The notes under the pieces are model-generated. The model was not told the DNA's origin. It saw only the letters and a list, made by a program, of their open reading frames with translations, and searched no databases. Shown one piece after another: positions 61 to 63,984 of a stretch of 64,000 nucleotides of DNA. This stretch comes from Bolinopsis microptera (lineage: Eukaryota > Ctenophora > Tentaculata > Lobata > Bolinopsidae), in contig NC_087072.1 of the NCBI RefSeq assembly GCF_026151205.1, forward strand, positions 6,496,084-6,560,083, in the 5' to 3' direction. The translations under genes were made by a program, and so were the position numbers. The stretch's first letter is position 1. Each line of letters opens with the position of its first letter.

Positions 61-3000
61 ATGGGTCAAGGAACATCAGCTTATGATCAGTCGGAACTGG
101 CCGAGTTTCAAGATCTGACGTATTTCACAAAACGTGAAGTGTTGCAGTAAGTTATTGTTATAGTTTTACGCTAGAACAGTTAAATTTATTTCTCATCTAT
201 TCAGCTTCGTGCGATGAATCTCGACAAAATAGTACTATTAGAATTCTTTTTGACCAACTTATCAAAGTGATATTTGATTTGAAAAGTTATTTCTAGTTTC
301 TAATTTAATTGACAAGGAAAGGCTGCAAATTATCAAGCTTAAGCTTTTCAGTGTTCATAAAAGATTCGGGGAGCTTGCCCCTGAAAAGATGAAGCTACAT
401 GGCAGGAATCCTACCTTAGCTAAAGAAGATATCTTAGCACTTCCTGAACTCGCAGTAAATATTTTGTTTCTTTCAAAATCAACTTGTACGGTATAATCTT
501 ATGATATACTGGAGGACTGATAAGTAAACGCTAGAGCAGGTTATTTGCTGGTTCACCTGGTTGGAATGCTATGACATGAGAGGGGATGGTTCAAATAATA
601 TGACGTCATCATTTTAAGGGGAGGAAGTAATAATATGCTCTCTGTAGTCTGCTACCATGACTTACCTAACAACTTCCTACTTCAGGCTAATCCCTTCAAA
701 GAACGTATACTAGAGGTGTTCTCAGACACAGGTGACGGACACATGAACTTTGAGCAGTTCCTGGACATGATGAGTCAGTTAAGCAGCAAGGTTAGTATTC
801 CTTTACCTCATTGTTTAAAGGTTAGTATTCCTTTACCTCATTGTTTAAAGGTTAGTATTCCTTTACCTCATTGTTTAAAGGTTAGTATTCCTTTACCTCA
901 TTGTTTAAAGGTTAGTATTCCTTTACCTCATTGTTTAAAGTCCTGCTTCTTTGTGTGTAAATCAGATGACAGGCCCGTTATAATCTCGTATCTACAGACG
1001 TAAGATAGACTGTGTGTGTCGTGAGGCTGTTAGTGCTTTAGTGTTGACTATCAACTATCTTACATTTAAATGATAGCTGATATTTCTTACTATCATCATT
1101 CATCAGCAGATAGAACACAGTATTAGTAGTAGTACTGTCTGAAATATAAGTATTATTTAATAAAATCTAGTGTTTTGAGTTTTGTCGTATCAAACCATTG
1201 TTCGGATATAGTAGTCACTCAATATGAGCCGGTAGAAATGGTAGATTTCAAGATAAAGAAAGCTGCACAAATCAACACATATATCAATGTATGAATGTAC
1301 AATGTATATTGTACATTGTCTAGTTTGCTTTATACATTTTGGGTTGCACCACTTGAAATGCGAACTGTTTATTCAGACAAAGCTACTACAGTGAAGTAAT
1401 TATATATTTTAATCCTGATAATATGTCCTTTAGATTACTCTGGTTTGATCTATTTGCATTTATATCTTCGGAATATTGTAGCTTTCAATACTCCAATACG
1501 TCCATTGCACCAACTTACCTTTTTGAGTTTTTGATAGGAATGTGCTCCTTGAGTGTTCTCAATGCACGTGGTCATTATATAATGGCTAGATAATGTGTAC
1601 GAGCATTGTTAACTGTACTACTGTAAAATAGGCTTTATATTGTCTCTCTCTATTGAGGTATGGTGTGTACACGGTTATTGTTGTGGTCAAGTGACGCGTG
1701 AGTCTCATTAATGTGGGGTTAACTCTTGTCACTAATAGTGTAATGTTTCAGGCTCCCTTGGAAACAAAGATAGACTTCGCTTTCAAGATATACGGTAAGT
1801 CTTTGCTAGGGGAATGTACAGAGTACATTACAGTTATACATTTAAAGCAAGCATTCAGGAAATGTAGCAACATGTTGCAGACTGCACATTGTGGAGTCAA
1901 GACAGTGGTTACTGTGTTTACACACATAACAGTTCAACTTATTTTAATATTTTGAAACAGTGTGTGTTTACATCAACCTACATAAAATACAAAAGTAACA
2001 AACTTTTGTGATGTAACCTAACTAATTAAAGTGTAGTGTAGGTATGTAATATATGTATGGATTTTGATACGTTTCCACACAAAGGCTGAATATCTCAAAA
2101 CTAAAAATGATATTCAGATTTCAACGAGGACGGTCAGATCTGTGAGAATGATCTACAGAAAGTGATACTGTTTCTAGTACAACCTGCAGTCACTGGAGCC
2201 ACTTTGAGTGGTGACGAGAGGAATCAAGTCATTAAAAACGTAAGATAGAATTCTTATTTCTTACCTTAGGGAATGTATTGTACAATTTGTAGCATGTTTT
2301 TAGTGGGTAAAAACTTATAACACGTGATCTAATGACATGGTTAATAACCATTTGTGTAGAAATTGAAAAATGAATGAGACATTAAGGTTCCTAAACATGG
2401 AATTCGTTAATTATAGTTTGGTAGATCTGCTGTATAACGATCTGAGTGATCGCCAGACAGTGCTGGCAAATCGAAATTTTGACCTAATTTTCAAATGGGC
2501 GATCCCTATAATCATCATGTGATGATTATACCCCACCAATGGTTATGTAAGATTTACCAAAATCACAACAATCAAATTGTTGATACCTACTACATATTGT
2601 ACAAGGTGGGGACAGGGGAGGGGCATAATCATCACATTTTTCTTGGTAATTATTGGGTTAATGTAATCCGGTTATGTTCATGTGTTAGCATTTTTCTATA
2701 CGTACTCCCTTCTATTTATATTAAGTGCAGTAGTGTACGCTGCAGTGGGTATGGTAATTATTGGTAGCCGTGTAGTGTTTCACTGCAACTTACTGAATAT
2801 GTTCTTGTTGGGTTAATATATTTAGGATGATATATCTAGGATGATAATATATCTAGGATGATAGCACATATTAATTTAACATACATCATATAATAACTGC
2901 TAGCTACTACGTCAGCCACTCGGCTCTACTAAATTATCGTGTAATCTAGTCTTCTAGTTATTTATAATACACCACCTGTTTATTAGATCGTAAGAAAAAA

Positions 3001-6000
3001 CCGGTTAGTTATCAGTGGTCAATGGACAGTGATGATTTGAGGTCCACGAGCACTGAGCTCTAAAAAGCGCCCATAATATAACTTCTTACAAACGATGTAG
3101 GTATCAGATTACTGAATCTTATTTCAAACCAGGCTCTCGGCTACTGTCTTCCCACGAATGATAATTAGAAGCTCGTGGTTGCAGTGAGGTCCATTTGAGG
3201 GATAATATCGTGGGCGAACACAAAGGATTTTACTTGCATTATAATACACAGTACGTTCTGGACCTACGAGGGGGCATGTTACACATGTGTTGTTCTAACC
3301 GACCACTTTTATGAGGGTTATATATATCATATAATATGTCACCGTAAAAGTGGTCGATCATACCAACACATATAGCACCTTTCCTTGGCATGCTCAGAGA
3401 TGTTATATAACATCTCTGAGCATGTCAAGGGAAGGTGTTATTTTTGTAACAGTCGCACCTACTAAATACTTTCAGTACTGTCTTGCGTAATGTTTCGGGT
3501 TTATATGCTTTTTCATTCTAAGTAGTTCAAATTTCCAGCTAGAATATATTCAAACCTAAAACACGTGAACAATTTTGGTTCATTTTCTTCTTTTATCTTG
3601 AACGTTAAAAGATCATAATATTAAGTTGTGAACACGAATAGCACATGAAGATATTTAAAGGAGTCTATATCTCTTAATTTCAATCGTAAAATAAACACAG
3701 TGCAAAGGTGCAAGTTTACACTTCTCACTATTCCCGCGGGAGGAGGGGTTACTGGTGGAATTGACCAGACACAATAACACATCGTACATTGATTCTTATT
3801 ATGTTATTATTATTATCAAGAGCAAATACAGTTGTAGACTGAAATCAACATGAGATATTTTCAACAATCATTTATACGCACCAGAGATTGTGTATCTCTT
3901 TTGTTGTTGACAAATGACAAACATTCTCATTATCCTGTGTTAATAATGTACAATACTGCTAGCAGAAGAGCTGTCGTACTGGTAATAAAAAAGAAGAGAC
4001 GGCTTTAAGTGACTCCCAGATTAATGACATAGTCAGGAATGTACGTAAGGAATGTGTGCTCTTGAATAATCAAAAAATAAAATAAAATCCTTGATCCATT
4101 TTCAAGCTGGTTTTGTTGATCATTTTAACAAAAATAATTGATTTCTAATTTAAATTTTATGATGAAGCTGACCAATTAATTCTGACGAAGAAAGAGTTAA
4201 ATAAATGATTTATCAATTAATTTTTGACTACGCTTAGATGATTCTCACAATTGCATTTTTAAAAGCAAAATATTTTGACATTATCAGTAAATAACAATGC
4301 TGACAATTTTTCGAAGAGCAGTTTTAAACTTCTCTAGCAGAAGCTATGTGATCCTTTTTTACCTCAAAATATTCTTATAAACGAGTCTAGTATGGTAACA
4401 TTCCTCAAATCGAGAGTGTATTATATCACCTCTTTAATATATTCTATTAAATTCAAGTAAGTTAATTCTCTCGCATATTATTTAAATTCAGGTTTGTATT
4501 AAATTTATAATCCACCCTAACACAGAGCGTTATCACGGATGATCAAATTAAAAAATTAGCCGGGAAGGTAAGTTTAATGTTCAGGCAATCCTTGCTTACT
4601 CTTACGTAACTGCTGATTAAAAAGTAAATAAGAAAAAGAAGGCGGTGGTCCGGTTGGAGTACACAATAGAAACTTGTACGGTGATAAATGTCGAATTATG
4701 TTGCAATTTGAGAGAACTATGACAATTAACGAATCATTTCCTGAACAGTTAAGTGTAAAATTGATTGGCATGGTAATGGTTGCATCACTAATTTTGTACC
4801 TTTTAATGGAAAATGTTATTTTATGTAATTGTATCTCAATTAACTAATAGTAATGGTCTATTATAATATAATTAAAATTAATGTTTATCTGATGAGAGTA
4901 TCAGAATGTTATCTAAGGTAAATCAAACTAATTATACATTTCATTTCGAAAAAACCCGATATTATCCTAAGAATGTATATTATGTCCTTTATCTGAAAAA
5001 GGAAACCAAATAAGAGGCGAAATTTAACGTTGAGACGATGTACAAGGCGTTGCCCAAATCATTCGTATTCAGATAGTTCTGTGTCCAGCAAAATGTGCGA
5101 GAGCTGGTTGATTACTGCTAATTGCTGATTGTATCTGATTATATGGCTGGTAAGGAGCTTATCACCTACAACTACTCGTAAGGTTCTATAAAATGAATGC
5201 CTACTTAAGAGCTGGTTTATATGTCGTTAGTAAGACCAAGATAATGACGATGACATAATAATATTACATAGTATTGATTAATAATAATATTAACATAGTG
5301 TTGATTCCCGATGTTGATTATTTTTATTTTTTGTGGTCAAGGAGACAAAATAAATATGAAGGTAATTTAGCAGAAATCTTATAATTAGCGTCTTTTACAT
5401 TTTCCACTACCCAGGTAATAAGCGAGATGGATATGGATGACGATGGCTCAATATCCTACTTGGACTTTAAGCACGGGATGAGCAAACTAAATGGCTTCGA
5501 GGAGTAAGTAATTTACAGATCATCTTCTTAGATGACGTAATGCAGTTTTTCAAAGGGTCTACATTTAATGCGACCTGGAACACGCGCATGTAAAAATGTT
5601 CGACCATTGACGCAAATGTTGCGCGCGCGCATGCATCCATATTATATTATCTAAGTAAACTATAGGTAAAAATATAATATTAATCATAAGCTAAAATGTA
5701 CTAATCTTTGTATTCTAAATGGGGAAAAAGAAGAAACATTGTCAGTCAGTCGAGAAAATTGTCAGTCAGGCTATATGGCAGCTTTGTAGATGTTGTGACT
5801 ATGCTAGTAGTGGTCCCAGGCTTATATATATCATATAATATATATTATATCATGCATCTTACATTAGTTAAGGTTCGTTCGGTTCAATTCGCGTCGTTCA
5901 TGCAGCCCGCGCAGTATGCATATAATTAAAAAACTTAGCTAAGATCCATAACATAAACATAAGCTAAAACAAGCTACAAATTGCTCACAATTAAGACAGA

Positions 6001-7099: not shown

Positions 7100-10000
7100 T
7101 CACTCCACAGCGATAGCATCAGCATAATCTATTCTCTCAATAGCACGCATGATGTCTTCTGTCTGCATCTGAAACCGTCTGTTAATCTCCGTGGCAGTGC
7201 TGGTTTGAGCCTCGTTGTTTTCTCTGATGTTCATGTTGTACCTCATTTCTTCATCTCGGTCTGATGTGTTGCGGAGGGCGTTCATCAAGAACCTGTGCTC
7301 GAGATCGTAGTGCTCCCTCGCGTTCTTCAGCTCCTCCTCATGCTGGTCGTTCATGTATTTCAGCATCATTGTCAGCTCATGCTTTTGTAACTTTCCGAGA
7401 AAGTTTACCTTAATTGAATCATTAGAGTTAGAGCCCCCGTTGGCGTTTGAAAGGGCATCCTGTATGGCCTGAAACCTGCTCATAAAATACTGTCGCAGTA
7501 AACTCAGTTCAGCACAGTAATCCATATCTACTTTATCAAGATCTCTTTTCAATTCTTCCTTCTTCTTGTCTTCTTTGATACCACGTTGATCAATACTATT
7601 GCGTCTTGAAATACCTGACTCCGAAACCTCCTCTACAACATCCACAATTATATCAGGTTCCGAGTCTTTGTAAAAGTCCATGTAGGAAGGAGTATAATTT
7701 TCAGCTTCTTTTACTTTTACTGTTTTGTCGTTGTACTGATTTGGACCATTTGATTTGTCACGCTGAGCAGACGGAGAACTCATAGGGTCTGATCTTACGT
7801 TTTCGGAAGATTTAGATAGTCGTGGTACGGGCTGCACCGGTCCTGGGCTTGGCAGATTGGTTTCTTGATCGGGAGGATCGGGCAGTTTTCTACCCTCGCT
7901 AACACTCGGAAGTGGTGGAGATTTGAAAACCTCAAAATCTCCCTTCTTCATGGTATCGCTGTCTACAAAAAGGTCTGAGTCAGTGCTGCTACTTGAGCCT
8001 CGGCTTCGCCTATTCTCTGATTGAGAGGGGGCTGGTTTAGTAGCTGGTTTGTCTTGTTGGGAAACATTATTTCGCCTCTGACCGACAGGACTTGATTTGG
8101 TTCGTTTGATATCAGGTTTTTTGAGCTGTTGGTCCGGTGGTGTGAATGATGAGTTACGCTGCAATGACTGAGGTGGAGAGACGGCTCCTGGATTGGTGAA
8201 CTCCGTTGTTCGCGTGTTTGAGCTGTTGTTTTCCTGGCTCCTAGCGTTTTGTGAGGGACTCCAAACAAGTGTTCCACTTTGAGCCCAGACACCTTCGTCC
8301 AGAGGGACGTCTTCAGTTCTCTGCTCAGCTGAGGATAGACGGTGTAAGTAACGGATATTCAGATATGATTAGTATGCTGTTTTGACTTTTGTGCCTCATC
8401 ATAGATATTAGATATATAATATGTATCTCGAAATCTCACAAATTCAGGTACGTTGATCGAATTGATCAACGCGCGTAACGCATTCGCGCGCGCAACGTGA
8501 TATTTGTTGCAGTAAGGACAGACAAACTTTATTATACCACAAGAATAGTGATGCGCGTTACATCAATATAGACATTAATTCTGCTAGCATATGAATACAG
8601 ATGTTTTCTTTCGACTTGTAAGATTGCCAAGAGCTAATCTTTTCACGTTAAAGATATGTTATGGTCACTGGGTTCAGAATAAAGCTAGCTGATTAATACA
8701 GCTGAAGTATATACATAATTTGAAACCACGGTTGAATGAATGAGGCTGCCATGTTGTACTAACGAGGGAGTGCTATTATTGTTGTGTCTACATGCTAAAA
8801 TTAATTACGGTAATAATCACATCGTTATTAAGGGGAGATCAGATCTTTTCACATTATCTATCGCATATAACGCATGTCTTATTCCATACCTAACATCCAG
8901 CAAATCCTCATGGTACTAAGATATTATGATTCATTTTTGCTTCCTAATCCACAACCCACGCGTGTAACTTAATTTGAGTTATTAGATAGATATCCCCTTG
9001 CCAGTGTACGGTGTACCTATATTTGCATGTCAACTGTCAAGATCTAGTCCAGACAATCTCACTAACTTCTGGATAAATACTGGGCAGGTTTACAAGAATT
9101 TTACCGATTTGCGGGAAACATCACGTCGCCTCTTAGAACACTGATAGTGATTGCCATATTCCATGCGAACTGTAATGTTCATTGCATCGGGCCGCGGGCG
9201 TGCCCGTGGGCTGCAATCATTAGTTCATAGTATGGTGAACTACTAGGAAAGCTATGTTGACATATAAGGTCATAAGGACTATATTAACTGAGAATAGTTT
9301 CTTCTGCATTGAGTTTATGTAATATAATAAAGAAAATAGAGGTTAAAATGTATGAACCAAGCCTGGACCGAGTATAAACAAACCAAGAAGACGATAAAAA
9401 TCTCATCAAATATAATCTTATGTGGATAATTTGATCAAGCCCAGTCATCTAGGCAGGCAAGTTCACCTAATACAACTTTTCAATTCGACTTAGGAGTCAC
9501 ACTCATGATTGCATGGGGATGGTACACGCAAAAGAATAATGGAAATGTGACTTATAAGTTACAATTCATATATTATAAGAATGAAGTCTTTAATGACTTG
9601 GCAGAAATTGATTTGCCACACCGAGAATTATGACGGGAATTTTGTTCTCTTTAGAGTCGCGCTTCCACTGCTATAATGAAGTATGAACCAATTATGATTA
9701 TACAGGTAGTGGTAATAACGTTGGTATTTTTAGCGCTCTTACTTTACCTTTTGGTGGTTCAGATGTTGGTTCAGTGAAAAATCTGCTGTTCTGCTGTTGT
9801 TTCATCTTTATAAACTTCTGCACTATGGTTTGCATCCCCTTATAATCTGTCCTGTGATAAATTTTAATTTAGTCGTGTCACTTTTAAGTGTCCCGTTCCC
9901 AAAAAAAGGATATCGAGTAAAACGCACAATTCTGCTAGTCTCCCTGTTAAAATTGAAGAACTGTTGAGATGACAATATTAATATGGTGACCGTCTTTGTA

Positions 10001-13000
10001 GCACCTTACCAACGCCGGGTGGACTAGTCTTATTTTAAGTAAGTGCATTAATTCGAACGATTAGGAGAATGTTTATTTAAAGCCGCAATGAATATGGCGA
10101 TAATATCTTCTAGTAGCTTTACCGTTGAACGAATAATCCCTAAAGGAATGATGTCGAATATTTGATTTTCCTGCAACAACAGCTTCGTCAGAACCACCGA
10201 AAACGTAAAAATTTCAGGCAAATATTACGAGTGAGACATTACAAGTCAAGGAACAATAATGAAAAAGACTCCACATACAGACAAAGGAGGGCAAAAACTA
10301 TTGCAGGAGAAGAGTGTGGACTGAAATATGATATAGTTGAACTAGTGGTACAAAATTTGAAAATTTGCACAGTTACTTACATACAACAAAAGGTCATATG
10401 TAACTAGAAAGCCCGGGGTCACAGGGAGGAAGTTAATAGTAAAACAAGGAGGAAACTAATAATAAAATGCCATACAATATGTACTGCACGTGCACGCGCA
10501 ACAATCATTGCATGTGCGCATGAGTGTTTCCATTTTCGTCACAATGCAACTTCCTATTTTTCGTCTAATTTATACGTGGGCGGCAATACGTACATAAAAA
10601 TACAAATGTTTCATTTATAAATTGGATAACAAACTGTGAAAATAGTTTGTTTTACTATATCAACTTCATTCCATAATTTTCTTCTGTTTTAGTTTTTGGT
10701 GGAATCTTGTTTGTACACCGTATGTTGACTCTAAGCTTTAGTCAGTCAGCTTTATAGCGGTTTTATAAAGATAACAGCCTTATTCCAATTCCGTAATATC
10801 ACTTTAAATCCAACCGTTAAGCAGCTAGAAAAAAACAACTAAGGTCTGTAATAAAGATAGACTGCTATCTTAATCAAATACACTTTCTTGACATTACTAT
10901 TACTCACTTCTTAATCATCTTCTGTTGTAACAACTGAGTGGCACTTAACCTGTCTCCTGGGTGTTTCTGCAAGCAACACGACAGAAATACCTGAAAAGCA
11001 GGCATTTCAGGTATTTGTTACATCAACACATTGTGACGTACACTGTTAGAGGTGACTAAAATAGAAGAGACAAACGATCAGTTTTACGTAGAATATTAGA
11101 TCTGACAAATTGCATATCCCCCCTGTACTGACGTGTGAGTCTACAAGATAGGGGACCGAGAGGATGAAGTTAGTTTATACCTTAAAAAGCCTAGAAAGCT
11201 GCTCATACCTGCCACAATACCTTAACACGTGACCATGACCAATGATCACGTGATATCGACCAATGACCACTCACAGAGCCATATCTGTCCTATTATTGCA
11301 CATTTGGTGGACCTAAATGCGCTGAAGAAGATGTGCTGTAATATGACACTATTTGACAGTTTCAAAACACTCAGCGTGCTGGCTGTCGACCACTATAATA
11401 TTAAATAAGTTGCCTACCTTAAGATACTTGGACCAGGCGTCAGGGTTGAGGAACTCGGGAGGAGGACGGGCAGGAATGGTGACCATGACACGTGAGGGGT
11501 GGGTTTCTGCGTAGGGAGGCTGACGCTCCGCCAGCTCTATCACTGTGATACCCAGTGACCAGATGTCTGACGCTGATCTGTACCCTTTCTGAAATTTATT
11601 CTGTAGGGGGTTAAATTCAAATTTCATTTACGCAATGAGAATGGTGTAGAGTAAGGAGTTTGGAATTTGAAATAAATGAAACTTACAAAACATTCCATAA
11701 CAATAATATGTTTAAAAACTTTAATTTACATTATGTACATTTTTTAACTGCTGTTTGTTTTGGGATAGGTCAAAGAGACAAGTTGCCATAAAATTCGATA
11801 CATTATGTCATTATTCACAGCATGACATATATCGCAGTGTCTCTTACATCTAAAAAATAGTGCAATTCGTGATCATGACGTAGTTTCCCCCTAAAATATG
11901 GTAATATTTTCCAGTAATCACGGGCACGCGGCGGCTTCTGATACAAGCAGTCAGAACAATGTAATAAATACTTTACGTAGTGCAGTTAACTAGCAGAGAC
12001 ATAAGGATGGGTTAATGGCAGACCATAGCCCGATGATGAGTCATGAATTGTGTGTGTTATTACAGCAATGTACAATGTATTAACGGCTATTCAAGTTCGT
12101 GTATACACGGCCCCCTTAAAGAGGAGTAGCCCCTCCACATTGTTCATGAGTACAGTGTATCTTACCACGGTGGTTCTACGGAATAACGGAATGAATACCG
12201 GACATATTTGCGTTACACCTCCTCCCACCGCAGCCCCCATGGTGATAAACAAATCCACATCTCCAGAGCCCTAAATAAAGTTAATCACATTCTAAACAAG
12301 CCTTTGTCTGGTCCCAGTACTGGCTGAGAAGAAGAGACCACTGTAATGACGGACGCCGGACGCGGCCCTGCTGCTGCTGCTGATGTAATAATAACACAAG
12401 TTACATTGAGCTGCACAGTGGTCTGGCTGTGATCCAGTCTGGTGAGGTGGTCCGGAGACTACAAAGAACTCAAGAACAAGGATCACAACATTCTTCACAT
12501 TCTATGTAACATAATGAGTTTATTATAACATAATTAGCTTAACACACTACACACAAGCTCACACTTTGTACCTTTCGCTTTTACAAATATTACGGTTTAT
12601 GTGTGCCAGTGTGTGGGAGCCCGTATCTTATAGATTGTTATATAAATAGTTTGATCTGAAGGCACAGTCCTGTGTTATGATCAGAGCACAATCCTATGTG
12701 ATACGTACCTCTTGATACCACAACACGGAACACAACGCCATTTATAATGCCCTATTTTAACTTAAAATAGTGTGAGTTGTGACGATATGTGACGTGTTAT
12801 GTTTACCTACGTAGACAACAAAGGAAGGTCCCGTGCAGTACGAGGTGGTGTAGTGAGTAATGGAGCTGCTACACTGACTGCTGGATCCCATTTTGTCAAT
12901 TGTCATAGACTTGGCGGTAACATAATGTCATATCTGACAAATACTGGCCCGCTGCTTTCTAGCGATCAATGTGTCAATTGTTGTGTCCTCGTGTGATTAT

Positions 13001-16000
13001 TATAGTGTAAGTTAACTTAATTAATATAATATAACGCGCACTGCTGTTCCCATACATTAGTATAAGGGCCCTGTCATGATATGTAGCAGAGATTATTAAG
13101 TAAAATTAGCGGGTAATCTGCCCGAGTAATTCCGCGGGAAAGTCAGCAGAATGAGAATGAGTACAATGGGATAACTTTCCATTCTTACATTTAACATTAT
13201 TTCTCTAATCGCCTCATACTGCATAAATTACATCTCGATCTCTCTCATACTCTCATAGTTCACGTCGTCACATACCTGCACTGTATATTCACTATTCATA
13301 AGATAAGGATCCTCATTATTCATTGTTATTCATTGTTATTGATAAGGAGATCTCCTCCTCTCCTCTCAGAGTACATTGTACACACCGCATGCCTTCTAAT
13401 AGAGTGCTATATATACAGGTGTGTATAATATACCACAGAGGTACATTATATATTCAACATACATAATACTCTCTCTACAAAAGCACCGTGTTGTGCTGTA
13501 AGAAGGTATCAGCTAATGACCCCTTACCAATCCAATCTAAGACTGGGTGGCTGGTAACCAATCAGGTGCCACCGGCCATGTCACGTGGGTTATGTAGTGT
13601 AATCCAACCTGCGAAACTGGGCAATATCATGTTTCTGCGCAGGCTCAAGTTGGTAGGTTATACCTGCATATCTCAAGGTAGAAACTAGTACATGGAGGTA
13701 TTTACAGTATGCACAGGAACAAAACTAGAAGTAGGTGGTGACTGGAACTAGAGACACTGTTCACGGTACAGTTTAGTGTACTACTTGATAAACGCCACCT
13801 GATCAATTAAAATTACATCTTCTATCATATTATTATGTCATATTATCATTAAGTACCTGATTTTAAGTCTAATAAACCGTAAACCATTATAATCTCGGGT
13901 CGGTTGTAATTCATCAAGGTAGAAGCTAGTACATCAAGGTATTCAGTTATCGACAAGGTAATTACTATACAGTAAATAGTAGACACAAATCTGTCTATTA
14001 AAATCTAGACTCAAGAACAAGAAAGTAGGTAACTGTAGTGAAACCAGGACTAGAGTTCACATTCCTTAACAGTCCATGTTTGTGCATTACTTAATAAAAA
14101 ACACTTAATTAAAGTAAGGCAGCAACTTCTAGCAGATGACATGATATCATTTGACAGATGATGTCTAATTTAACATAAGGTAATCAATTAAATCTCCTCT
14201 AGTTGTTTCAACACACCCTCATACTCCTCCACACAAGGTTCTCTCTCACATACACAGCAGTGGTTACTATACCACAGTGGTCGCAGTCACTTGAACAGCA
14301 AGTACTGTCGACACGTAATGGTTCAAATATTTCACAAGTACAGTACTCTCACACTCTCTACGTACAATGTGCACGTTTTTACTGTTATTCTAGCTTGTTC
14401 TTAAAGTCCTAACACATCACCTAACACATCTACTATTTTACACTTTTTATCTTTCTCTCTCTCCAGGTGTTAATAATATTCATCGTCCTCCAGTCACCAC
14501 ATTTTATACAGCTACAAAAAGTAAAGCAGGGTGTTTGTGCGATGTGTAGTTACCCAGTCATACTTTATCATTGAATATGGTCGAGAAACGTCAAGAAAGA
14601 TGCTGAAAATTTAAACTTTCCCTGATGTTCATTCACAACTGATACAATATTTGTCAGCATATTAGCTTTGGCTATGACCTATATCAAGATTTTAGCTTGT
14701 ATTGACAGGAATCTTAAAATAATGCCTAGTATATAGTTCAAGTGCGAGCCATGTTTCATAGTCATTGCAATAAAACCGTAGGAGCAGATTGGTTTGAGGA
14801 CGGAAAAAGGGTCATATTCGGGAAATCGCACGAAACACTTTAATCGCGCAAGTATCCTGACTTTCGATCGGTTAGAACTATGCTCAAAAGTATGGAAACT
14901 ATATCACTCTCTTCTTTTAGAAATATTTAATGTACCAGTTCAAAAGTGTAGTGGGTAATTGTGTTACATGTAGTAAGTCCAGTAAGCAAGGTAGTCATAA
15001 GTGTAATATAAGTAACAAAAGTATCCGTAGTAAGTAAAGTAAATTATTTATAGTACTCATTAAGTTATTTACCTGGAGCAGTATCTCAGGAGCGGACCAG
15101 TAAGCGTTACCCACCACTCCATCGACATTGACACCAGTATCTGAGATGTTGACTTGAGGACTGGGTTCAGCTAGCTTACACACACCAAACGTTGTTACCA
15201 GGATGTTACTTGCTCTGATGCGCGTGTGCACGATACTGCACGCGTGCAGTGCTTCCAGACCTGGGGAGGGGGTATTAGTAAGCATCATCATTATCATCTG
15301 TTGTGTAGGAGTGGCTCAGGGTAAAATAGGAGTGGCTCACTGGTTCACTGGCTGTGTACTCTTGGCTGATCTTTAATTTATCTTTAGCATAAAAACCGAT
15401 AATTTGGCGATGTGCGGCTTCAAAAAGTGTGGATTTCAAGCCATTAACATTTAACACGGGTCAATATTGTGTTTGAGTAATATGGATCGGCTCGGTCTAT
15501 TATATATATAGACAAACCATGAACAAGCCTTATCCGCAGTTATTTACCCATTTTGTGAATCTATCTTTAGTCTAAAACCCAGTAATTTAGTGCTGTGTAG
15601 ATTAAGAAAACAGAGATCTATGTGTCACGTTGTTAATATCATAGATTTGAGGTGAGTCAGAATAAGCGTCTACTCCGTAGTCCGTAGCAAGTAAAGCAAT
15701 TTCAACGCAAAAGTTGAACAATGTCTATTTGCTGCTATTTATGTCTAGCAATTCTAATTGGACTCTAATTGTACCGAGTAAATCCTTATCGTTAGTGGTT
15801 AACTCAGACATCACTGCATATCTTAAAACGACACTTTTGAAGGACACCCATTGAACTTTCTCGGCTAGCAGCAAAGCTTGTGCATGGAGGAATGCAGAGT
15901 GCATACCACAAAACATAAGTTAATGTGAGGATAATATACGCTAAATAGTTTTCTTTAAAAACGAACATTCATTGATATTTCATCTAGAGTAAAGATTATA

Positions 16001-17917
16001 CCGTGTCTAGTAAAGCTTTAAAGTAAAAGCTTTAAATAATATTAAACAGTCATTAAAAAATACCAGCCATTATCGCAGATGACCGAAGTTAAATATGTGT
16101 TAAATACATGACGTTCTGAAGTTAAACAAACAAAACATCTTCTCTGAGTGTTTACACATAGAACTATTTGTTGGTGTACACTATACTGTATACATAGTAC
16201 ACCGCATGATAAACACTGACAATTGGCCGGAAATTCCTTTTGTTTTCTACCATGATGACACACGACTGCAGCATAACTTTGCCGCGTACATTTGGGATGG
16301 ATACAAGTAACCGGTTTATGATACTGTTTTTTTTCATACTAAATCACGCTTGGATGGCTTGAATATATACTTCTGTGGTATGTTTTTATTGTCAAAGCGT
16401 GATATGAATACCGGTATTTACTTATTTATTCATTTATGTTCATTGTTTAATGGTATAAGCGACAGTGATAGGGGGGAAGAGGGGGTACTCCTGGATACTG
16501 TGAGACATATTATACAGTGAGACATATTATACATGTTATATATATGAGTTATATATGAGTCCTGATGTTAACTTCTGAGTGATTCTCTAGAGAACACGAA
16601 TTCTATTGAATCATCAGTTAATGAGGTTGTCTCAGTTTGTGATAAATGGAGATTGAAGAAAGTGGATTTCTGCAGTGAAATTTTGTTAATCATAATCTGA
16701 GAACAAGATCGAATTAAATTTAGAGAATGGAGGGTGATAACGTAATAAAATCAATCCCACTCTATGTTATATGTATCTTGGTCAATCTATATTGATACAT
16801 CTAAAAGCTAACTTTCTTTACTAATCTAGATGTACCACCTTAACAGCTTAGTCACCCAACTACATAGCAAGCAGAACTAGCAGGATGAAACTAACTTTAC
16901 AACAAATATTGCAGTAATCTGGTAAATAAATAATTATAAGCCCCCCCCCCCCCCCCCACAATTCTGGTAACCACGGCAACCACCTACCTCTCAGAGTGTG
17001 ACTGACCACAGTCCGAATCTGACTCTCTTTGAGCGGCCGGTTCAGTTGTGCCATGAGATTGTGAACACTGAAACCGTGGCAAAACTCCATGACAACCCAG
17101 AAGTACTTGACAGCCTTGTAGTAGCCATAGAGGGTCACCACGTGGGGTGAACGACACTCCCGGACTTGGTCCAATGTGGCCATAAAACCCTGAAACGTTT
17201 GTTTTTCAGTTTTGTTTTTTTTTTCATTTGAAGATTCTCACCAAAACAAGCATACTTTTATTCAGCAGTAAGATCCGTTTTTTGTATATCATAGCTTAAG
17301 ATAATTTTATCATGCACTACAATTCCGCAATTTTGTTAATATGTTCCACTTGCACTCATAGATTTTACACATCATCTTTCATGGCACGTCAGTTCTGATA
17401 ATTTCATTTAATCTGACGAAAAACACTGGTAAAAGAGATGCAGCAAATCACTGTCCCTTGTCTTAGAAAGCTAAAAGGTGTCATTACCAATTTAAATACA
17501 TGGTCAAAATTAAACATATCATAAAAGTCGATTCTGGTTAAACTGATTATGTTATTGTTAAGTATGAAATACACTTCTTTAACCGTCGCTGGCTTAATTG
17601 TAATGGTACCTTCGACTCCTGTAATTGGCCGATTACAATGTAACCATATGGCTGTTTGGAGAAAACCAAAGTAAAATAAGTATCCAGATAGTAATGTACT
17701 TAATTGAGATTTATTGTTGAAATTCTATAAACATGTTAAACTGATAAAATGTTACCTCATAATCGTTGGTGAGATTAGCTGGATACTTCTTTGCAATAGC
17801 AACTTGACCTAGGGCAGCATTATAGGCTTTAAATATTGTGCTTCCAAACGAGCCATTACAAATCTTTTCTTTGATGTCAAAAACATCTCTGTTGTCAGGT
17901 ACTGTTGAACTGTTCAT
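7100..17917 (-). CDS. MST/Hippo-like Ste20-family pseudokinase with SARAH-type helices, 7 exons, 712 aa
   Basis: Exons in transcription order: 17917-17756, 17189-16988, 15260-15073, 11588-11418, 10990-10908, 9851-9748 and 8328-7100. Phases fit throughout (2139 nt), and an in-frame TGA lies two codons before the ATG. Residues 14-270 follow the MST1/2 kinase fold: PHVVTLYGYY, VVMEFCHGFSV, SDIWSLGITVIELAERQPPY, RLSATQLLQ. Catalytic residues are lost. The glycine loop reads CNGSFG (first Gly gone), VAIK is VAIA (Lys to Ala42), the helix-C Glu aligns with Thr59, HRD is HTR (133-135) and DFG is EPS (153-155). APE (178-180) and Asn140 remain. The linker keeps a DTMKK motif (428-432), like the MST phospho-TM docking motifs, and SYMDFY (518-523), matching MST SFMDYF. 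A SARAH domain follows at 561-598, with a second SARAH-like helix at 620-657 and a weaker third at 664-703. It is probably a scaffold or dimerising regulator in Hippo-type signalling; that role is inferred. Confidence 0.9.
13674..14140. repeat. Diverged tandem duplication in pseudokinase intron 3
   Basis: Two segments of roughly 240 bp share landmarks in the same order: CAAGGTAGAAACTAGTACAT (13676) against CAAGGTAGAAGCTAGTACAT (13915), then similar GACTAGAGTTCAC and GTACTACTTGATAA/GCATTACTTAATAA stretches. The rest has drifted. No open frame is supported. Confidence 0.5.
16941..16957. repeat. Poly-C tract (17 C) in pseudokinase intron 2
   Basis: The run of 17 C on the + strand reads as poly-G in the transcript, about 30 nt after the exon-2 donor. 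Sense-strand G-runs near donors can influence splicing, so the placement is worth noting. Similar homopolymers occur at 33513, 42122 and 59112. Confidence 0.9.
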
Positions 17918-19724: not shown

Positions 19725-19904
19725 AATACAGCTTTCGACTGGAAATCCTCGATTTAATGGTGGCAGATTATTATATGGGGGATTGTTTGTTTGGAATGAA
19801 CAGTTCCAGTCTAAATTTGCAGTTTCAGGCAGTAAATATAAGTAGTCGAGAGCACAACTACTAGCTACCTTTTAAATGGGTCTTAGTAGATGTTAGTAAA
19901 TGTT

Positions 19905-20804
19905 AGCTGCCGATTCGAGAAATTAGCTAATGAAGTACTACAGGCCGTAAACAAGTATATGGGAGTTAACCTACTGCACATTAATGTAAAGAAGTGTTGT
20001 TACATGTATTTTTCTCCCTCTAAACGTAATAATAACGAATTAGATGCCGATATAGATAGCCAAAACTTGTCCATTAATAACAAAATAATTAAACGTGTAA
20101 GTCAGACAAAATTTCTTGGAGTAATCATGGATGATAAATTGAGCTGGAAACCACATATATCATCCCTCAACAAGAAACTAAGAAGTGCTTGTGGACGTAT
20201 CTACCGTATTAAGAAATGCTTACCAGAATCACTATATAAGCAAATATATCATTCCCTCTTTGAATCACACCTAGGTTATGCTATTTCTGTCTGGGGAGGT
20301 ATTCCCAATAATCAGTTAAAACCGCTATTTATTACTCAAAAGAAGTGTATCAGGATTCTATTTGGAGACTATGAAGCTTATGTAGACAAGTTCAAGACAT
20401 GTGCTAGAGCAAGACCAATTAATTCTCAACGTCTAGGATCTGAATTCTATGTTAAAGAGTCCACTAAGCCCCTATTCACAAAACATGAATTACTTGTTAC
20501 AGAGAACCTGTACAGATACCGTTGTTTAATGGAACTTTTTAAGATCATTAAGTCACGAGTACCAATTTCGTTATACTACTTATTCAACATATCAAATAGG
20601 AAAGATAATCTGTTCATTACACCCTCTCCAACTAATCAATTTATTTATAAATCTGCATGGCTGTGGAATGAATTCCGTAAAGTTGGCCCGTTAAATTTCA
20701 CCTCCACATGCAGATCTATCAAGAATTTACTTAAACAGTCACTTCTAAGAGCTCAAAACCGGTATGGAACTGAGTGGTGTGACAAAAATGTCACTGAATT
20801 CTGA
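19905..20804 (+). pseudogene. 5'-truncated non-LTR retrotransposon, C-terminal part of reverse transcriptase ORF
   Basis: About 300 codons stay open to TGA at 20804 and align along their length with the C-terminal third of the reverse-transcriptase ORF at 27484-30027 (for example LLHINVKKCCY, TKFLGVIMDDKLSW, SHLGYAISVWGG and QKKCIRILFGD in both). The catalytic FADD region is absent, so the copy is dead on arrival, as expected from 5' truncation during target-primed insertion. The 5' junction is near 19905. The clade looks like the CR1/L2/Jockey group, judged by overall motif style only. Confidence 0.85.
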
Positions 20805-26136: not shown

Positions 26137-29100
26137 AATAAAACAAAAGTTAATAAAACAAAAGTTAAATTTATTACCAATTATTCAATCAATACATATC
26201 ATAAATTCTAATATTGGAAACACAATGCAGAATGGATGTCTTAAACTATAATTTGTTGTCACTAATAATCTATTTACTTTCAAAGTTGAAATTTAGTTAA
26301 GTATGAAATGCCACCACATCATAGTTAGGGTAAAATATAATTCTTAAAAATTTTAAAATTAAGAAGATTGCTCTATGACTTAAAATTTAAAATTTAGCTA
26401 AAGATGTCTAATTTTTAAATAGTTGGTTACAGTTTATGACAGTACTGGCATGACCAATTTTATTGTGGCTGGTAAAAGGACCCAGTTGCCTGTAAGGGCT
26501 TTACCGAACCCCTGGGGACCACAATGTGATAGGATCAGGCCAGATGTTTCTATGTAGAGCAATTTATTTATTTCGGAGCTATGGTTACGTGGTATAGTTG
26601 GTGGTCATGTTTAAAGGTCAGTTTATCCTTGTGTGCTAATTATCCATCCAGATGCTTAGTGATGTGAGTAAATCATGCCCTTCTACATTATATATAACGT
26701 TTAACTATAAATTTGTTTTTACCACAGAAACTGTGGCACTAAGGTCAAGAATTAAAAATGTTTACTCTCATTGATAGTTAAAGCGTTTTTTTTTTTTTTT
26801 TTTTTTTCCCCAGCACTACTACACAACAAAAACCTGTCGGCCCACCGAGGAAACACAGTCGCAGAACAAAGAACCCAATTGTGCTCCTCTATTCTGCGAT
26901 CGTGTGTATTTACTATAAACTAGCTAAATGCAGTTAGTAAAATTTTCTGGAATCATTAAATTCGTTTGATTAGTTTATGTGTCAAAGTAATGTCCATGAT
27001 AATCATATTTTTGGATCCCCGGTGGGCAAACACTCGTCACAAAGGCTAAGGCAAACCTGTCAATGTTTCACCATACGAAGTAAGGAGATTTGAACACATA
27101 CTCAGCCTACAACTCCACCCATGGGACGATACGTCGTGAGCCTCAAAATATATAGCACATACCCAGTTAGCAAACACTATACACAACAAACATACGATAC
27201 CAATCAATGTATAATGCCATTACTTCATTTAAAAGAAAATACATCTGCTATCTAATTTTAAAAAAATTGAAGAATAAACCTGAAGAGAGGAGAAGGAGAG
27301 AGGGGTTTGGGAGAGGTAGAGTAGGAAAACAACAAGATCCTGTGCCGCAGGATTTTAAAATTTGTTGTATGATGATTCGTTTTGTGTCGTCTCTTAGATT
27401 AATATAGGTCTGATACCCTAATTGTCATGGTTTTTTGCAATAACACCGTGGTTTACTCATGTGATTATGTTTACTAAATCAACCTATTTCAATGATAATT
27501 CATTTGCATCAAAGTTGTAACTGCACCAAAGTTGTCGGTCATATTTAGACTGTAGTTCTAACAAAGATTTCTTAAGATTATTCTTGAATATACTGATGGG
27601 AGTGGAGAAGTCTATTTCACTTGTTGACTTACGGCAGTGATTCCAAATACTAGTTGATTGATAGATGAATAGTGAGGATGGAGTGGGTGGGATGAAGTAG
27701 TTGTCTCGTCTTGGTGACCTGTTGAATAAAGAGAACATTGAGATTGGTGATTGGAACTTATTAATTTTGAACATTTCCAGTAAACAGTGCAACTTATGAA
27801 GATTGTGGACAGTCAGGAAGTTATACTCGTTACAGATTGGTTTACTGTGTTCTAGTTCAAAGAAATCTTTGCCTAACATCTGCTTGATAACTTTACCGGT
27901 CTTATCCCTAGTGATAGGCCTTACTCTGGCACATGTTTTGAACTTATTGAAGTATGCATCATTATCACCAAAGAGAATTCTTATGCATTTCTTTTGTGTT
28001 TTAAATATGGCTTCTAGTTTATTATTTGATACACCTCCCCAAACAGATATTCCATAACATAGGTGTGATTCAAAAAGGGTGTGGTACAGGTCCTTATATA
28101 GTTTTTTAGGTACACAGCGTCTAATTCCACATAGTCTACCTATCTCACATTTCAATTTACGGTTTAACGCTCTTAAGTGAGCATCCCAGTTCAGTTTTTG
28201 GTCAATAATGACTCCAAGAAACTTAGTTTCCTCCACCTTTTTAATTACTATATTATTTAGTGTCAGTTCTAATTCATTGGTGTTTGAATCTGGTTCATTT
28301 CTACAGTTCGGCTTAAAGTGGATATAGCAACATTTCTTTATGTTGATATGCAGCAAGTTACTCTTCATATACTGATGAACAAGTTTAAGAATTTTATTAG
28401 CTTTGCAGTAAAGTGTTTTTATACATTTATCTACAACAAATATGTTGGTGTCATCGGCAAAAAGTATAAACTTACCTAGGTCTGATACTCTATATATTTC
28501 ATTGATGTAGATAATGAAAAGCAAGGGACCTAATACTGACCCCTGAGGAACACCAAATATTACAGACAGTTTTTCGGATTCTTCTCCAAGTACTGAAACA
28601 TATTGCTGTCTATTAGAAAGGTAACTGGCTATCAATTTATTTGCAGTCCCTCGAATTCCATAATCATTCAGTTTTTTAAGCAGTTTATCATGACAGATTG
28701 TGTCAAAAGCTTTACTTAAATCAATGAAGATGCCTAGTACGTGATTTTTATCTCTTAAAGATTTTTCAATGTAGTCGACAGAAAAGTTGAGTGCATGGCT
28801 TGTCGAATGATTTTTTCTGAAGCCATATTGATTTTCATATAATAATCCTTGCGACTGAAAGAAACTGTAAAGCCTGGAGAATATGATTTTTTCAAGTATT
28901 TTACCGAATATTGCTAAGGTTGAGATAGGCCTGTAATTTTCAAGAAGCTCAGCATTTTCTTTCTTATATATTGGACTTATTTTACCTACTTTTAGGTCGT
29001 CTGGAAAAAATCCCTGTTGCATACATTCGTTGTACAATACCGATAGTAGTGGGCTAATTTTGCCTGATACTGCCTTTACTATATGTACTGGTATGTCGCT

Positions 29101-30281
29101 AGCCTTGCCATTCTTAAGTTCCGATATGATCTTAGCCACCTCCTCAGGTGAGCAGTCATGTAGATATATATTAGCTGTATTCGATTTAGGTAAGGAGTCA
29201 CAGAAACTTGGAAGCTGATTTATTTGTATCTCTCCTAGTTCTGTGTAGGCTGCATTAAGGTTAGATGCTAGGGATACAAAATACTTATTGAATTCATTAG
29301 CTATAACTCTGCGATCAGTTATCTTTTCATTGTCTATGGTAAATATAGGTCTGATATCACGTTTCTGTTTGCCACGAATTTTATTTATCAGTTCCCAGGT
29401 TTTCTTGGAATTTCCCTGAGTTTCAAGAAACTTGTCAGAATAATATTCAGATACAGCTTTTTTACGAACCTTTTTTAGAGCCTTTCTATATTCTTTGTAG
29501 TCATCATAACGGTTTCTTTTATTACAGCAGATAGAACACACGCATGTGCCCCCTTTTGTGTCAGTTTCGCCTTGTTTACACTTAACTTTCCTGACTTTCG
29601 CCCAGTCATCATACAGCCCATGGCAGTGGTTTACTGAGGCTATAATCCCGCCAGTAATCCATGGGTTGTTCTGCATAGTGCGCTTAGTGGTTTTGGGTAC
29701 AGCTAGTTTGCAGGTTTCGTCAATGCTGTTTTTAAAGATATCATGAAAGTTAGTAAAATCTATAATTGGTTCATTGTCTAGTTTGTTACCCAAGACTTCA
29801 GCAAATTTATCAGTGTTTGATTTACAATAGTCATAGTATTGAGTGTGCTTGTGAATATTTTTGGTCTTTCTAATTTCCCAGTCAAATATTGTAAATATAG
29901 GTAGGTGATGAGATATGTGATCAGTTATGACTCCAGAGGCAGTAACAGAGTCTAGGTCATTTGTAATGATGTTGTCGATGCACGAGGCATTACATCCAGG
30001 CTTTTCATGAGTTGCTAATGATATCAATGGAAGAAGCCTCTACTAAATAGGACATCTTCATACTGTGCAATAATGCTACTGTGGTTACTATGGAGATTAA
30101 TGTTAAAATCACCTGCAATGTGTGTATGTTTTGGTGCTTTATCAAGTATTGACGACAATTCTTGGAGAGCTTGCTCAGCATTGCCACTTGGAAGGCGGTA
30201 TATTACTCCTATAGAAGTAGAGTTTCCTAGACTACCTATAGTTACAAAGAGGGTTTCTAGATTTTCTGTCACTTGGGAAAG
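26137..30281 (-). mobile_element. 5'-truncated non-LTR retrotransposon inserted in the satellite
   Basis: The element reads on the minus strand from about 30281 to 26137. Its limits come from the host satellite: monomer sequence breaks after GTATT at 26132-26136 and resumes with GTATT at 30282-30286, a 5-bp target duplication. The 3' end is two copies of a 15-bp unit (AATAAAACAAAAGTT on the + strand, 26137-26166), a tail style known in CR1-like elements. The 3' UTR is about 1.3 kb and contains an internal A-run (T-run at 26786-26810 on the + strand). A second copy of this 3' UTR lies inverted at 33317-34990. The 5' part is missing, as the endonuclease is incomplete. Confidence 0.88.
27484..30272 (-). 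pseudogene. Endonuclease/reverse-transcriptase ORF of a CR1/L2-type retrotransposon, one frameshift
   Basis: The first frame (30272 to about 30024) has endonuclease motifs TSIGVIYRLPSG and HTHIAGDFNINL. One base is lost near 30024, and the frame continues from 30027 to 27484 with HEKPGCNASCIDNIIT and SDHLPI-like DHISHHLPIF. The reverse-transcriptase domain follows: NYRPISTLAIFGKILEKI, GFRKNHSTSHAL, FIDLSKAFDTICHDKLL, GVPQGSVLGPLLF, then the catalytic FADDT, and a long C-terminal region. The enzyme would nick target DNA and prime reverse transcription there. Apart from the frameshift and the missing N-terminal endonuclease, the frame is open for about 845 codons, so the copy is young. Confidence 0.92.
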
Positions 30282-35296: not shown

Positions 35297-38200
35297 ATGA
35301 GACGACTATGGGTACTGCTAGCTCTCCTGACAATTGCTGTGTGCTACTCTCCCATGATCCTAACCTACGTCTTATCTGCTACTTGTCTTATAGCTGTAGC
35401 GTTAATGCTTTATAAAAAGTTCATCAGAAAAAACAAGGAATCTCTTGCGGCCCTGTTCCTGTCAGTTCTGCTTAATCAGATTGCACTAATCTGCAGGACA
35501 CTTAGATATCTTAACTTTGTTTCTGATGTGGAGTCCTTGAGAGCACCTAATTACATGACCTTGCTGCTGAAGCCCCATCCAGAGGTTACGTATGAGAGGA
35601 TGCAGATTAAAGATGATACTATTAATATGATGATCTATCGACCCAAAGTTATAAAGAACGACGGATTGATTGTTTATGCACACGGTGGTAAGTAGAGTTC
35701 AATTCTTTATTTCTTTACTTGTATTATAAACTGAAGTCGTCTTTTACCATAATAGCTTAATATGACTTGACATAGATACATACTATTTGACATTTTTGTT
35801 AGAAAGACTACAACACACAACACAACATAGACAGCCAAAATGCCTAACATTGTCCTCAAACTTGGTTCCCCGTTTTTAGTGTTTTTGGTGACAGTACAGT
35901 TGATATTGCATTGGATATCCGTCATTTATTAAGTGAATGGAGCTTTTCATTTCATTACAAGGCATTTTATTGCTTTTTGTGCAAACCATGGTTTTCCTTT
36001 CTGTCCGAAAATTTGAATTTTTGTTAGAAATCTCCGTTTTGGACAGAAATAATGCAGTGTTACTCTGCGTCAATAACACATTTTAAACACAATCCAATGC
36101 CCCTGATAACATATTTAACTTTCTTGTATGGCACATAATATATGGCAATCTACTGAAACTATTTAGTCCTATTACTGCATAATCACTTAAATATAAATGT
36201 TGGGGCACGGTGATTTCTTATAATTTCCGGCCTTTTCCATTTAGCTACACCTTAGCTTTAGGTTTAACTCCTCAGTGTTAATGTCGAGGAGGGTAATTAA
36301 TCAAAACACTCAGGATTTCCGCCCCTTTTGTAGGTCTGCTGCAAAGGTAACTAGTCTATTCTTCTATTGTATTGATAGGTTGTACTGAATGGGCGATGAT
36401 CATAGCGAGTAGTATTGAAACGCTATATATATACAGTTGTGAGCAAACGCATCTGTGTCAAAATGTTGGAAATTGTTGAACAGGTTTTAAAGATTTACAG
36501 TTTACGACTTTCTGGGTTATGCGAAGTTTTGATTAGGCTACCTTAATTTGATGTATGAGGGGTATATATATATTATACAGTGATACACTTGTTATAGTTA
36601 TGTTATGTAAACTTAGAATTAGTGATTTTGCAAAGTTCATCCTTTATGCCGACGACGCAAACATATTAATTAGTGGAACCACCCTAGAAGAAATACAATT
36701 AAAAGCTAATCAGCTAATTTCACGTCTTGTAGATTGGGTAGGTGTTAATGGGCTATCTTTAAATGTAAAAAAGACGTGTTACATGATTTTCACTAGAAAA
36801 AGAATCGACTTCAGCGGCTTTAATTTGTCCATTGACAACACTGTAATCGAACGTAAGACTGAAGCAAGATTTTTAGGAGTGATCCTAGACGAAAAGCTCA
36901 CTTGGCAAAAACACATTACGGCCGTTAGAATAAAGATGGGTCGCTACCTCGGAGTTATGTATAAGCTAAAGCACCTTCTACCTATCAAAGCCCGCCTAAA
37001 CATTTTCCAAAGCCTTATCCAATCCCATTTAAATTTCTGTTCTTTAGTGTGGGGCTTTGCCTCAAAATGTCACATTGAATCTCTGTTCACCAAGCAAAAG
37101 CAGGGAATTAGAGCTGTTATGTCAGGATATGTAAATTATAGATATAAAGACGGCAATCCCCCGGAGCACACAAAAAGTGCGTTTAGATTGCATAATATCC
37201 TAACAGTCCATAGCGTCATTGTAAAAAACGCTCTTATTCTACTACACAAAGTAAGGAACATGCCAAGCCTTCTCCCTAAATCCATCAAAGAACTTTTCCC
37301 TCACGATATTCCCACCTATAATTCCACATACGAACATAACCTTTCTTGGTTCACAACTTACAACGGCCCAACATTTAGAAATACTCTTTTCTTCAAAGGA
37401 CCCATGCTCTCTATTACAAAGCAAAGTAAGGATATAACTATTCCAAGTTCTACCTTTTCAATTGAAATCTTTAAAAATTCAGCTAAGCGCGAACTCCTCA
37501 AGCTGCAAAGCTCAGGAGACGATGAAAATTGGCCAAATTTCTTACTTTATAGTATACCTGGGCTAAGAAAGTCTCAAAGAGAAGGGCGCTCGCAAATAGA
37601 CTACAGCACCGAGTTAGTAAGCGACAACGCGTAAAGAAAGATCACTCGCGACAAATGACTATGATCTTTTATCAACAACATATCATTTTAATTTCACTGC
37701 CATTATGCAATGCCGAATTTACATCTGCCGCGCAAAACTTTTTATCTATTATTATTAAATAGTAATTAGCATGTTTACAAATTGCGACTTCAACCAGTTT
37801 TGCAGACCGTTAGTTATATAGTACTTTTAGTAGGGCATTTATTTTAATATATTTATTTTACATTATTATATTTTAGTGTGACTTCTATAATTTCATTTAT
37901 GTAATAACCATTGATCAATAAATTGCGGCACACGCCAACCTCCACCGTGGGGTTTCAAACAAACAGTAGTCCTATCACGTGGCCGATCTTAATTAGCTGC
38001 ATTTGTTTGTTACCCCACATCATAAAAACACCGCGTCCACATGATTAAAACCACACTGCCTTTTATTATGTTGCCTTTTATTATTATATGTTTATTTTAT
38101 TATTATATGTTGTGTCTTAATCAATAGTGATGGTGCACGCTGCACCAAATTTGTCTATGCCGTTAAATTCAGAGATATTGCTCACAGTCGTTGATTCTGA

Positions 38201-51042: not shown

Positions 51043-63984
<12,942 letters not shown>

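Follow-up and report, generated by a model that had tools for sequence, protein, structure and literature searches.

The analysed DNA, hereafter the window, is a stretch of 64,000 nucleotides from the ctenophore Bolinopsis microptera (contig NC_087072.1, positions 6,496,084 to 6,560,083, forward strand; guanine-plus-cytosine content 37.5%). Its minus strand carries, at window positions 17917–7100, a gene that the reading of splice borders resolves into six coding exons for a protein of 674 amino acids (aa). This gene very probably encodes a diverged paralogue of the Hippo kinases MST1/2, predicted from its residues to be inactive, which would have arisen by duplication of an MST gene together with its introns. 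A canonical MST gene is present in the same genome.

Gene model and kinase domain

The coding exons and the two replaced catalytic motifs are located as follows.

17756–17917, minus strand: coding exon 1 (aa 1–54), with the start codon, the glycine loop CNGSFG (first Gly replaced by Cys20) and the retained beta-3 Lys43; donor GTAACA, phase 0; an in-frame TGA lies two codons 5' of the ATG
16988–17189, minus strand: coding exon 2 (aa 55–121; 202 bases), from helix C, with Thr59 in place of its Glu, through helix E; AG/GT borders, end in phase 1; tblastn match with MST1 at E 8e-12; length equal to that of the canonical MST exon
15073–15260, minus strand: coding exon 3 (aa 122–184; 188 bases), which spans the catalytic loop as well as the activation segment, with HRD and DFG replaced and APE kept
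15220–15228, minus strand: HRD position, His133-Thr134-Arg135 by alignment
15160–15168, minus strand: DFG position, Glu153-Pro154-Ser155 by alignment
11418–11588, minus strand: coding exon 4 (aa 185–241; 171 bases), SASDIWSLGIT and the following part of the C-lobe; tblastn match with MST1, 58% over 52 aa, E 5e-18
10908–10990, minus strand: coding exon 5 (aa 242–268; 83 bases), end of the kinase domain with alpha-I Arg255 kept; end in phase 2
7100–8318, minus strand: coding exon 6 (aa 269–674 and stop), with the linker and the C-terminal helices; acceptor placed from phase only

Seven exons had been proposed in the initial annotation; splice borders and phase give six. Exon 6 is a single open frame of 406 stop-free codons (chance 5e-13 at the composition of the window). 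Its acceptor was chosen because it is the only one of five tried that keeps the frame after exon 5, and we regard it as the weak point of the model. The preceding intron (10907–8319) holds 103 open exon candidates, of which those of at least 45 bases were listed, and no kinase similarity with E below 0.2. A small extra exon in this intron is possible; the kinase domain and the tail would stay unchanged.

The assignment of the gene to the spliced Ste20/MST kinases, made initially from the translated frames, was borne out by database comparison. The kinase domain matched Pfam Pkinase with an E value of 4.5e-40, and in a phmmer search of the PDB the ten best of 2285 matched sequences were MST1 or MST2 (214.7–216.5 bits), followed by MST3 (167.5 bits) with SLK/LOK close to it. 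Identities in this domain are 41% to the MST of the same genome, 41% to human MST1, 37% to MST3, 36% to SLK, 32% to PAK1 and 24% to STRADA; the last value, compared with 41% for MST, shows that a STRAD is not the nearest relative. Canonical Bolinopsis MST and human MST1 share 71% identity. In a maximum-likelihood tree of nine rows, covering MST, STRAD and other Ste20 kinases, the pseudokinase was joined with canonical Bolinopsis MST (support 90/89) and then with human MST1 (86/96), and it was thus placed, with moderate support, on the MST1/2 side. The own-genome homologues of SLK, OSR1 and TAO were left out of this tree as too fragmentary, the long insert of STRADA was cut out, and the MST3 homologue fills 43% of the columns; the tool also warned that SLK and PAK1, both on long branches, come together. 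Both the ranking (216 versus 167 bits for MST3) and the tree point to descent from the MST1/2 subfamily.

Sixty alignment columns identical in five active Ste20 kinases were taken as the invariant set. The beta-3 Lys column falls outside it because the PAK1 row is a Lys-to-Arg mutant chain. The pseudokinase keeps 40 of the 60 residues; STRADA, a known pseudokinase used as yardstick, keeps 38. As first annotated, the first Gly of the loop (Cys20), the helix-C Glu (Thr59), the HRD Asp (Arg135) and the DFG Asp (Glu153) are lost. Lost too are the HRD Arg (Thr134), the HRDxK Lys (Arg137), the remainder of DFG (Pro154-Ser155), the Thr of the GTP sequence motif (Asn173) and eleven others, and the T183 position is occupied by Gly in the MAFFT alignment. 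Losses affect 9 of 13 active-site or activation columns versus 11 of 47 others (Fisher p 0.006, the 13 columns having been picked post hoc with the list already seen). Kept residues include Gly22, Gly25, His133, Asn140 and Arg255, as well as Glu180 of APE and Asp192 of DIWSLG, two motifs rightly described as retained in the initial annotation. The latter also counted the VAIK Lys as lost (VAIA), which is probably wrong: the phmmer and MAFFT alignments both pair Lys43 (GQVAIAKKYP) with the catalytic Lys in GQIVAIKQVP of MST1.

Measured against an active MST, the protein retains the beta-3 Lys and has lost the activation-loop Thr, the helix-C Glu and the Asp of both HRD and DFG. A kinase fold with essential catalytic residues lost marks the domain as a putative pseudokinase, predicted to be catalytically dead. 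Alternative exons bringing back HRD or DFG, which had been considered as a possible refutation, were not seen between window positions 6000 and 20000.

The genome searched comprises 264.65 Mb in 232 contigs, with the window on contig C1. A second, intact MST, for which the initial annotation had proposed to look, is indeed present: the sole Pfam Mst1_SARAH match in the genome belongs to the canonical MST (C1:1376800–1376943), 5.1 Mb from the window. The kinase exons of this gene keep GEGSYG, VAIK, HEIS, HRD and DFG; the gene also keeps Thr-Met (TM) motifs, and its protein ends a few residues past SARAH. Each of the five kinase introns of the pseudokinase gene has a counterpart in canonical MST at an identical alignment column and phase (0, 1, 0, 0, 2), and in both genes the four internal exons measure 202, 188, 171 and 83 bases. 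Exons of the MST3, PAK and TAO homologues covering the GLEYLH stretch are intronless there, and the SLK pieces stop short of it. The introns shared in place and phase suggest that an MST gene was duplicated together with its introns, not retroposed, and this common gene structure also argues for MST1/2 descent. The kinase search of the genome listed 70 places, own exons included, on contigs C1 to C13 and the small contig C68; canonical MST and five other loci were inspected, and a third MST1/2-like gene could exist elsewhere. A genome search with the C-terminal tail matched the pseudokinase locus only.

In the canonical MST locus (L002, 5650–7116), the intron after kinase exon 5 contains a 27-copy array with a 54-base unit. 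The array starts within the end of this exon and carries the splice donor; the string of exon end plus donor occurs 12 times exactly, which makes a repeated splice donor in a live MST gene. Near the tail of the same gene (L001, 2268–3134), a long repeat array has CDANIRRRDIT and YIGITCNVASP units readable on both strands. Kinase matches with identical scores at C3:15521590–15522351 and C68:533–1294 perhaps represent an alternative haplotype.

Linker and C-terminal helices

Exon 6 encodes the following elements outside the kinase domain.

7943–7957, minus strand: DTMKK (aa 390–394), candidate phospho-TM motif
7670–7690, minus strand: PSYMDFY (aa 479–485)
7442–7558, minus strand: helix 1 (aa 523–561), SARAH-like, without the N-terminal h1 segment of SARAH
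7265–7411, minus strand: helix 2 (aa 572–620), SARAH-like, with an N-terminal FL..L..EL segment
7106–7258, minus strand: helix 3 (aa 623–673), a predicted helix without SARAH support

The two MST-style linker motifs of the initial annotation, DTMKK and SYMDFY, are thus both present. PSYMDFY resembles PSFMDYF of human MST2. When the tail was shuffled 200,000 times, no match arose to the pattern PS[FY]MD[FY][FY], which was written from the human motif after the match had been seen. The tail has two TM dipeptides, one of them inside helix 2, versus 0.64 expected. This count is near chance and DTMKK alone is therefore not evidence. The last-exon frame of canonical MST contains four TM dipeptides versus 0.57 expected.

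Helices were scored with small in-house SARAH profiles built from three sequences (MST2, canonical MST and MST1) or two (MST2 and canonical MST), and compared with 5000 plain shuffles and 5000 shuffles keeping the hydrophobic pattern, of which hmmsearch reported 4901–4997 in each 5000. Helix 1 scored 15.6 bits with the three-sequence profile, a value reached by none of the shuffles of either kind, and 13.6 bits with the two-sequence profile (1 plain and 3 pattern-keeping shuffles). The corresponding scores of helix 2 were 13.8 bits (0 and 12 shuffles) and 16.2 bits (0 and 14). Helix 3 scored 2.6 bits (369 and 689) and 0.6 bits (1578 and 2118). With other helix borders and 3000 shuffles each, helices 1, 2 and 3 gave 12.9, 16.2 and 0.6 bits, the shuffle maxima being 9.6, 16.0 and 10.8 bits. 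Of the SARAH domain, the similar helix and the weaker third helix in the initial annotation, two helices lie above the shuffles with these profiles; helix 3, at shuffle level, was rejected as a third SARAH helix. Against the single SARAH helix of MST, the protein apparently has a doubled element, namely two SARAH-like helices.

At the 12 interface hot spots listed for MST1 (PMC4089488), helix 1 has 4 identical residues (L444, L448, E458, I473) and 5 conservative ones, and helix 2 has 4 identical (L444, L448, E458, Y466) and 4 conservative ones, 'conservative' being our own judgement. The signals of ancestry are split between the two, helix 1 having the better interface and helix 2 the N-terminal segment. 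As in the straight helix of RASSF5 (PMC4089488), the two SARAH prolines are missing from both; the MST of the same genome also lacks the first of them.

An AlphaFold2 model of aa 512–674 from one sequence gave helices at 513–561, 568–618 and 623–673, with a mean predicted local distance difference test score (pLDDT) of 77 and a predicted template modelling score (pTM) of 0.53. A block with pLDDT 82–92 over aa 582–661 takes in the greater part of helices 2 and 3 and the turn. Helices 1 and 2 modelled alone gave pLDDT 80 and pTM 0.37. The fold matches listed for the C-terminus mostly span model residues 52–163, that is, helices 2 and 3. The model hints that helix 2 may be packed against another part of the same chain, perhaps as a hairpin with helix 3.

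Putative role in Hippo signalling

In two other ctenophores, Hippo, Salvador, Warts and Mats were each reported to have one clear orthologue, and true Yorkie was reported as missing; the available part of that report makes no mention of a second Hippo (PMC4761220). In the genome of B. microptera, MOB exons were found at two loci, together with eight RA-domain matches, unclassified as to RASSF. Neither the SARAH model for RASSF nor a query with the SARAH of SAV1 matched the genome, a result that is uninformative without a positive control. The presence of Salvador in ctenophores was taken from PMC4761220. A zf-C4 profile, also run without a positive control, had no match in the genome, and none was obtained for COX1.

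MST1/2 form dimers through SARAH, in which they become active by trans-autophosphorylation (PMC5663475). The SARAH domain of SAV1 alone blocks MST2 activation in vitro, and linker T378 of kinase-dead MST2 is a substrate of active MST2, pT378 then docking MOB1 or SLMAP (PMC5663475). Raf-1 binds the SARAH domain of MST2, hinders dimerisation and thereby inhibits MST2, even when Raf-1 is kinase-dead (reviewed in PMC3215182). Against this background, the most likely role of the pseudokinase is that of a non-catalytic SARAH partner which restrains or re-scaffolds canonical MST. Through its SARAH-like helices it would pair with the SARAH of canonical MST and/or Salvador. Such a dimer would be without a second active kinase for trans-phosphorylation of the activation loop, and MST activation would therefore be lowered or gated; active MST or Salvador would be drawn out of productive dimers by the dead partner. 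Active MST might also phosphorylate DTMKK of the pseudokinase, leading to docking of MOB1 or SLMAP. The decoy-dimeriser function suggested initially is a reasonable one, resting on precedent and inference. We consider restraint of MST plausible, if slightly short of an even chance, and the identity and the mechanism taken together about evenly balanced between right and wrong. The wider proposal, that ctenophores evolved a dead two-helix MST which titrates or self-caps SARAH pairing and thereby gates the canonical Hippo kinase, is speculative and would probably not hold in full.

The kinase class, the PSYMDFY-type linker motif and the SARAH-like C-terminal helices are common to the pseudokinase and MST1/STK4 or MST2/STK3, and the five intron places and phases to the pseudokinase and the own-genome MST. 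It differs from MST1/2 in the loss of catalytic residues and in having two SARAH-like helices followed by a third helix without SARAH support. Drosophila Hippo lay outside the sequence comparison. Like STRADA and STRADB it is a Ste20-group pseudokinase, with a similar share of invariant residues retained, but it is distant from STRADA in the tree. STRADA and STRADB are not known to have a SARAH domain. Like SAV1, RASSF5 and Raf-1, it would act on MST via the SARAH of MST without kinase activity; unlike it, these three lack an MST-type kinase fold.

Several observations weigh against this interpretation. A significant SARAH match had been set as a test in the initial annotation; the curated Pfam model Mst1_SARAH matches none of the three C-terminal helices, and the support comes from the small in-house profiles. 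When the last 158 residues were compared by phmmer with 177,635 PDB sequences, the only two matches with E up to 10 were both MST2 SARAH; they cover helix 2 with its FL..L..EL segment, not helix 1, and are weak (E 0.37 and 0.56) and not significant alone. Over 49 residues, helix 1 shares 13, 12 and 12 identities with the SARAH of MST2, canonical MST and MST1, respectively, and helix 2 shares 13, 12 and 9; the two helices share 10 of 49 with each other, and helical heptads yield chance similarity. None of 465 matches in the fold search of the C-terminus reached E 0.001, the PDB matches being generic helical bundles; no SARAH entry was among the 50 fold matches listed in each view, which does not exclude one. 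In the tree, both supports are below the tool's mark for strong support (95/80), no starred set includes the pseudokinase row, and its branch is long (1.78 versus 0.13), so that its placement could be disturbed. Finally, Lys43 and the Asn of HRDxxxxN are kept, and nucleotide binding is therefore possible.

Instead of a brake, the protein could be an allosteric or scaffold partner whose pseudokinase domain or phosphorylated DTMKK linker aids MST or brings in MOB1. Many core residues of the C-lobe (alpha-F, APE) are kept, and there are precedents: KSR3, a non-chordate paralogue of KSR and a pseudokinase, activates a true kinase through dimerisation (PMC10322840), and STRAD, suggested to derive from an inactivated germinal centre kinase (GCK)-type kinase, engages LKB1 with MO25 (PMC3804511). 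KSR3 resembles the present protein as a pseudokinase acting on an active cousin by dimerisation, but it belongs to the RAF pathway, not Hippo, and is reported as undetected in ctenophores (PMC10322840). Aid of this kind is difficult to reconcile with activation by trans-autophosphorylation in dimers (PMC5663475), to which a dead partner is unable to contribute, and with the near-chance count of TM motifs; we consider it rather unlikely. Another alternative is that helix 2 folds onto helix 1 or 3 of the same chain, mimicking a SARAH pair internally, and that the protein does not dimerise unless opened. The three helices of about 50 residues in the AlphaFold2 model, its well-scored block over helices 2 and 3, the span of the fold matches and the antiparallel pairing of SARAH (PMC4089488) all agree with such capping. 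The pTM values are low, particularly for helices 1 and 2 alone, and single-sequence models of long helices may give hairpins regardless. Self-capping is the less favoured arrangement, with a small probability only.

The very long branch and the 41% identity to the sister copy, versus 71% between canonical MST and human MST1, would also suit a decaying duplicate, a functionless pseudogene in the making. This is improbable: all six exons are open, the kinase part has GT/AG borders, the last exon is open over its 406 codons, the lengths of the internal exons are unchanged and many fold residues are kept. It is more improbable still that the kinase remains active by an unusual route. Lys43 and the catalytic-loop Asn140 are retained and Glu153 occupies the DFG Asp position, but Arg135 replaces the catalytic Asp and Thr59 the helix-C Glu, and the activation loop has lost both threonines.

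The two STRADs are named as pseudokinases of the human STE20 family (PMC6445471), and no MST/Hippo pseudokinase with SARAH was met in the part of the open literature searched. In other cascades, pseudokinase paralogues act as regulators, as with STRAD for LKB1 and KSR for RAF. If the wider proposal, gating of the canonical Hippo kinase in ctenophores, is true, it would add to the Hippo core a pseudokinase arm not encountered in that literature. Since true Yorkie is reportedly absent from this lineage, the co-occurrence of a dead and a live MST would allow a test of whether SARAH pairing alone can carry Hippo regulation. The same setting would bear on how this regulation was wired near the animal root.

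Other features of the window

The remainder of the window contains the following frames.

599–1003, plus strand: EF-hand-like piece (VFSDTGDGHMNFEQF), then a short tandem repeat of about five KVSIPLPHCL copies in frame; the frame had no match in Pfam
19890–20804, plus strand: frame resembling, by eye only, the same type of reverse-transcriptase element as the next two
27484–30039, minus strand: reverse transcriptase frame of 851 aa, non-LTR-like (LTR, long terminal repeat) by eye; Pfam RVT_1, E 3.7e-36
36552–37634, plus strand: shorter reverse transcriptase piece, non-LTR-like by eye; RVT_1, E 1.7e-05, under the curated cut-off
42392–43006 and 49756–50469, plus strand: alpha/beta hydrolase piece(s) of one or more genes, perhaps arylacetamide-deacetylase-like; Abhydrolase_3, E about 1e-12
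56091–56528 and 57504–57914, plus strand: exons of a P-type cation ATPase; PF00122 under the cut-off, PF13246 above it
59426–60349, minus strand: SLC35F-type solute carrier in one long frame, possibly intronless; E 2.4e-44

The end of the frame at 56091–56528 consists of repeated CNVYATS units, which may stem from reading across the exon border into a repeat.

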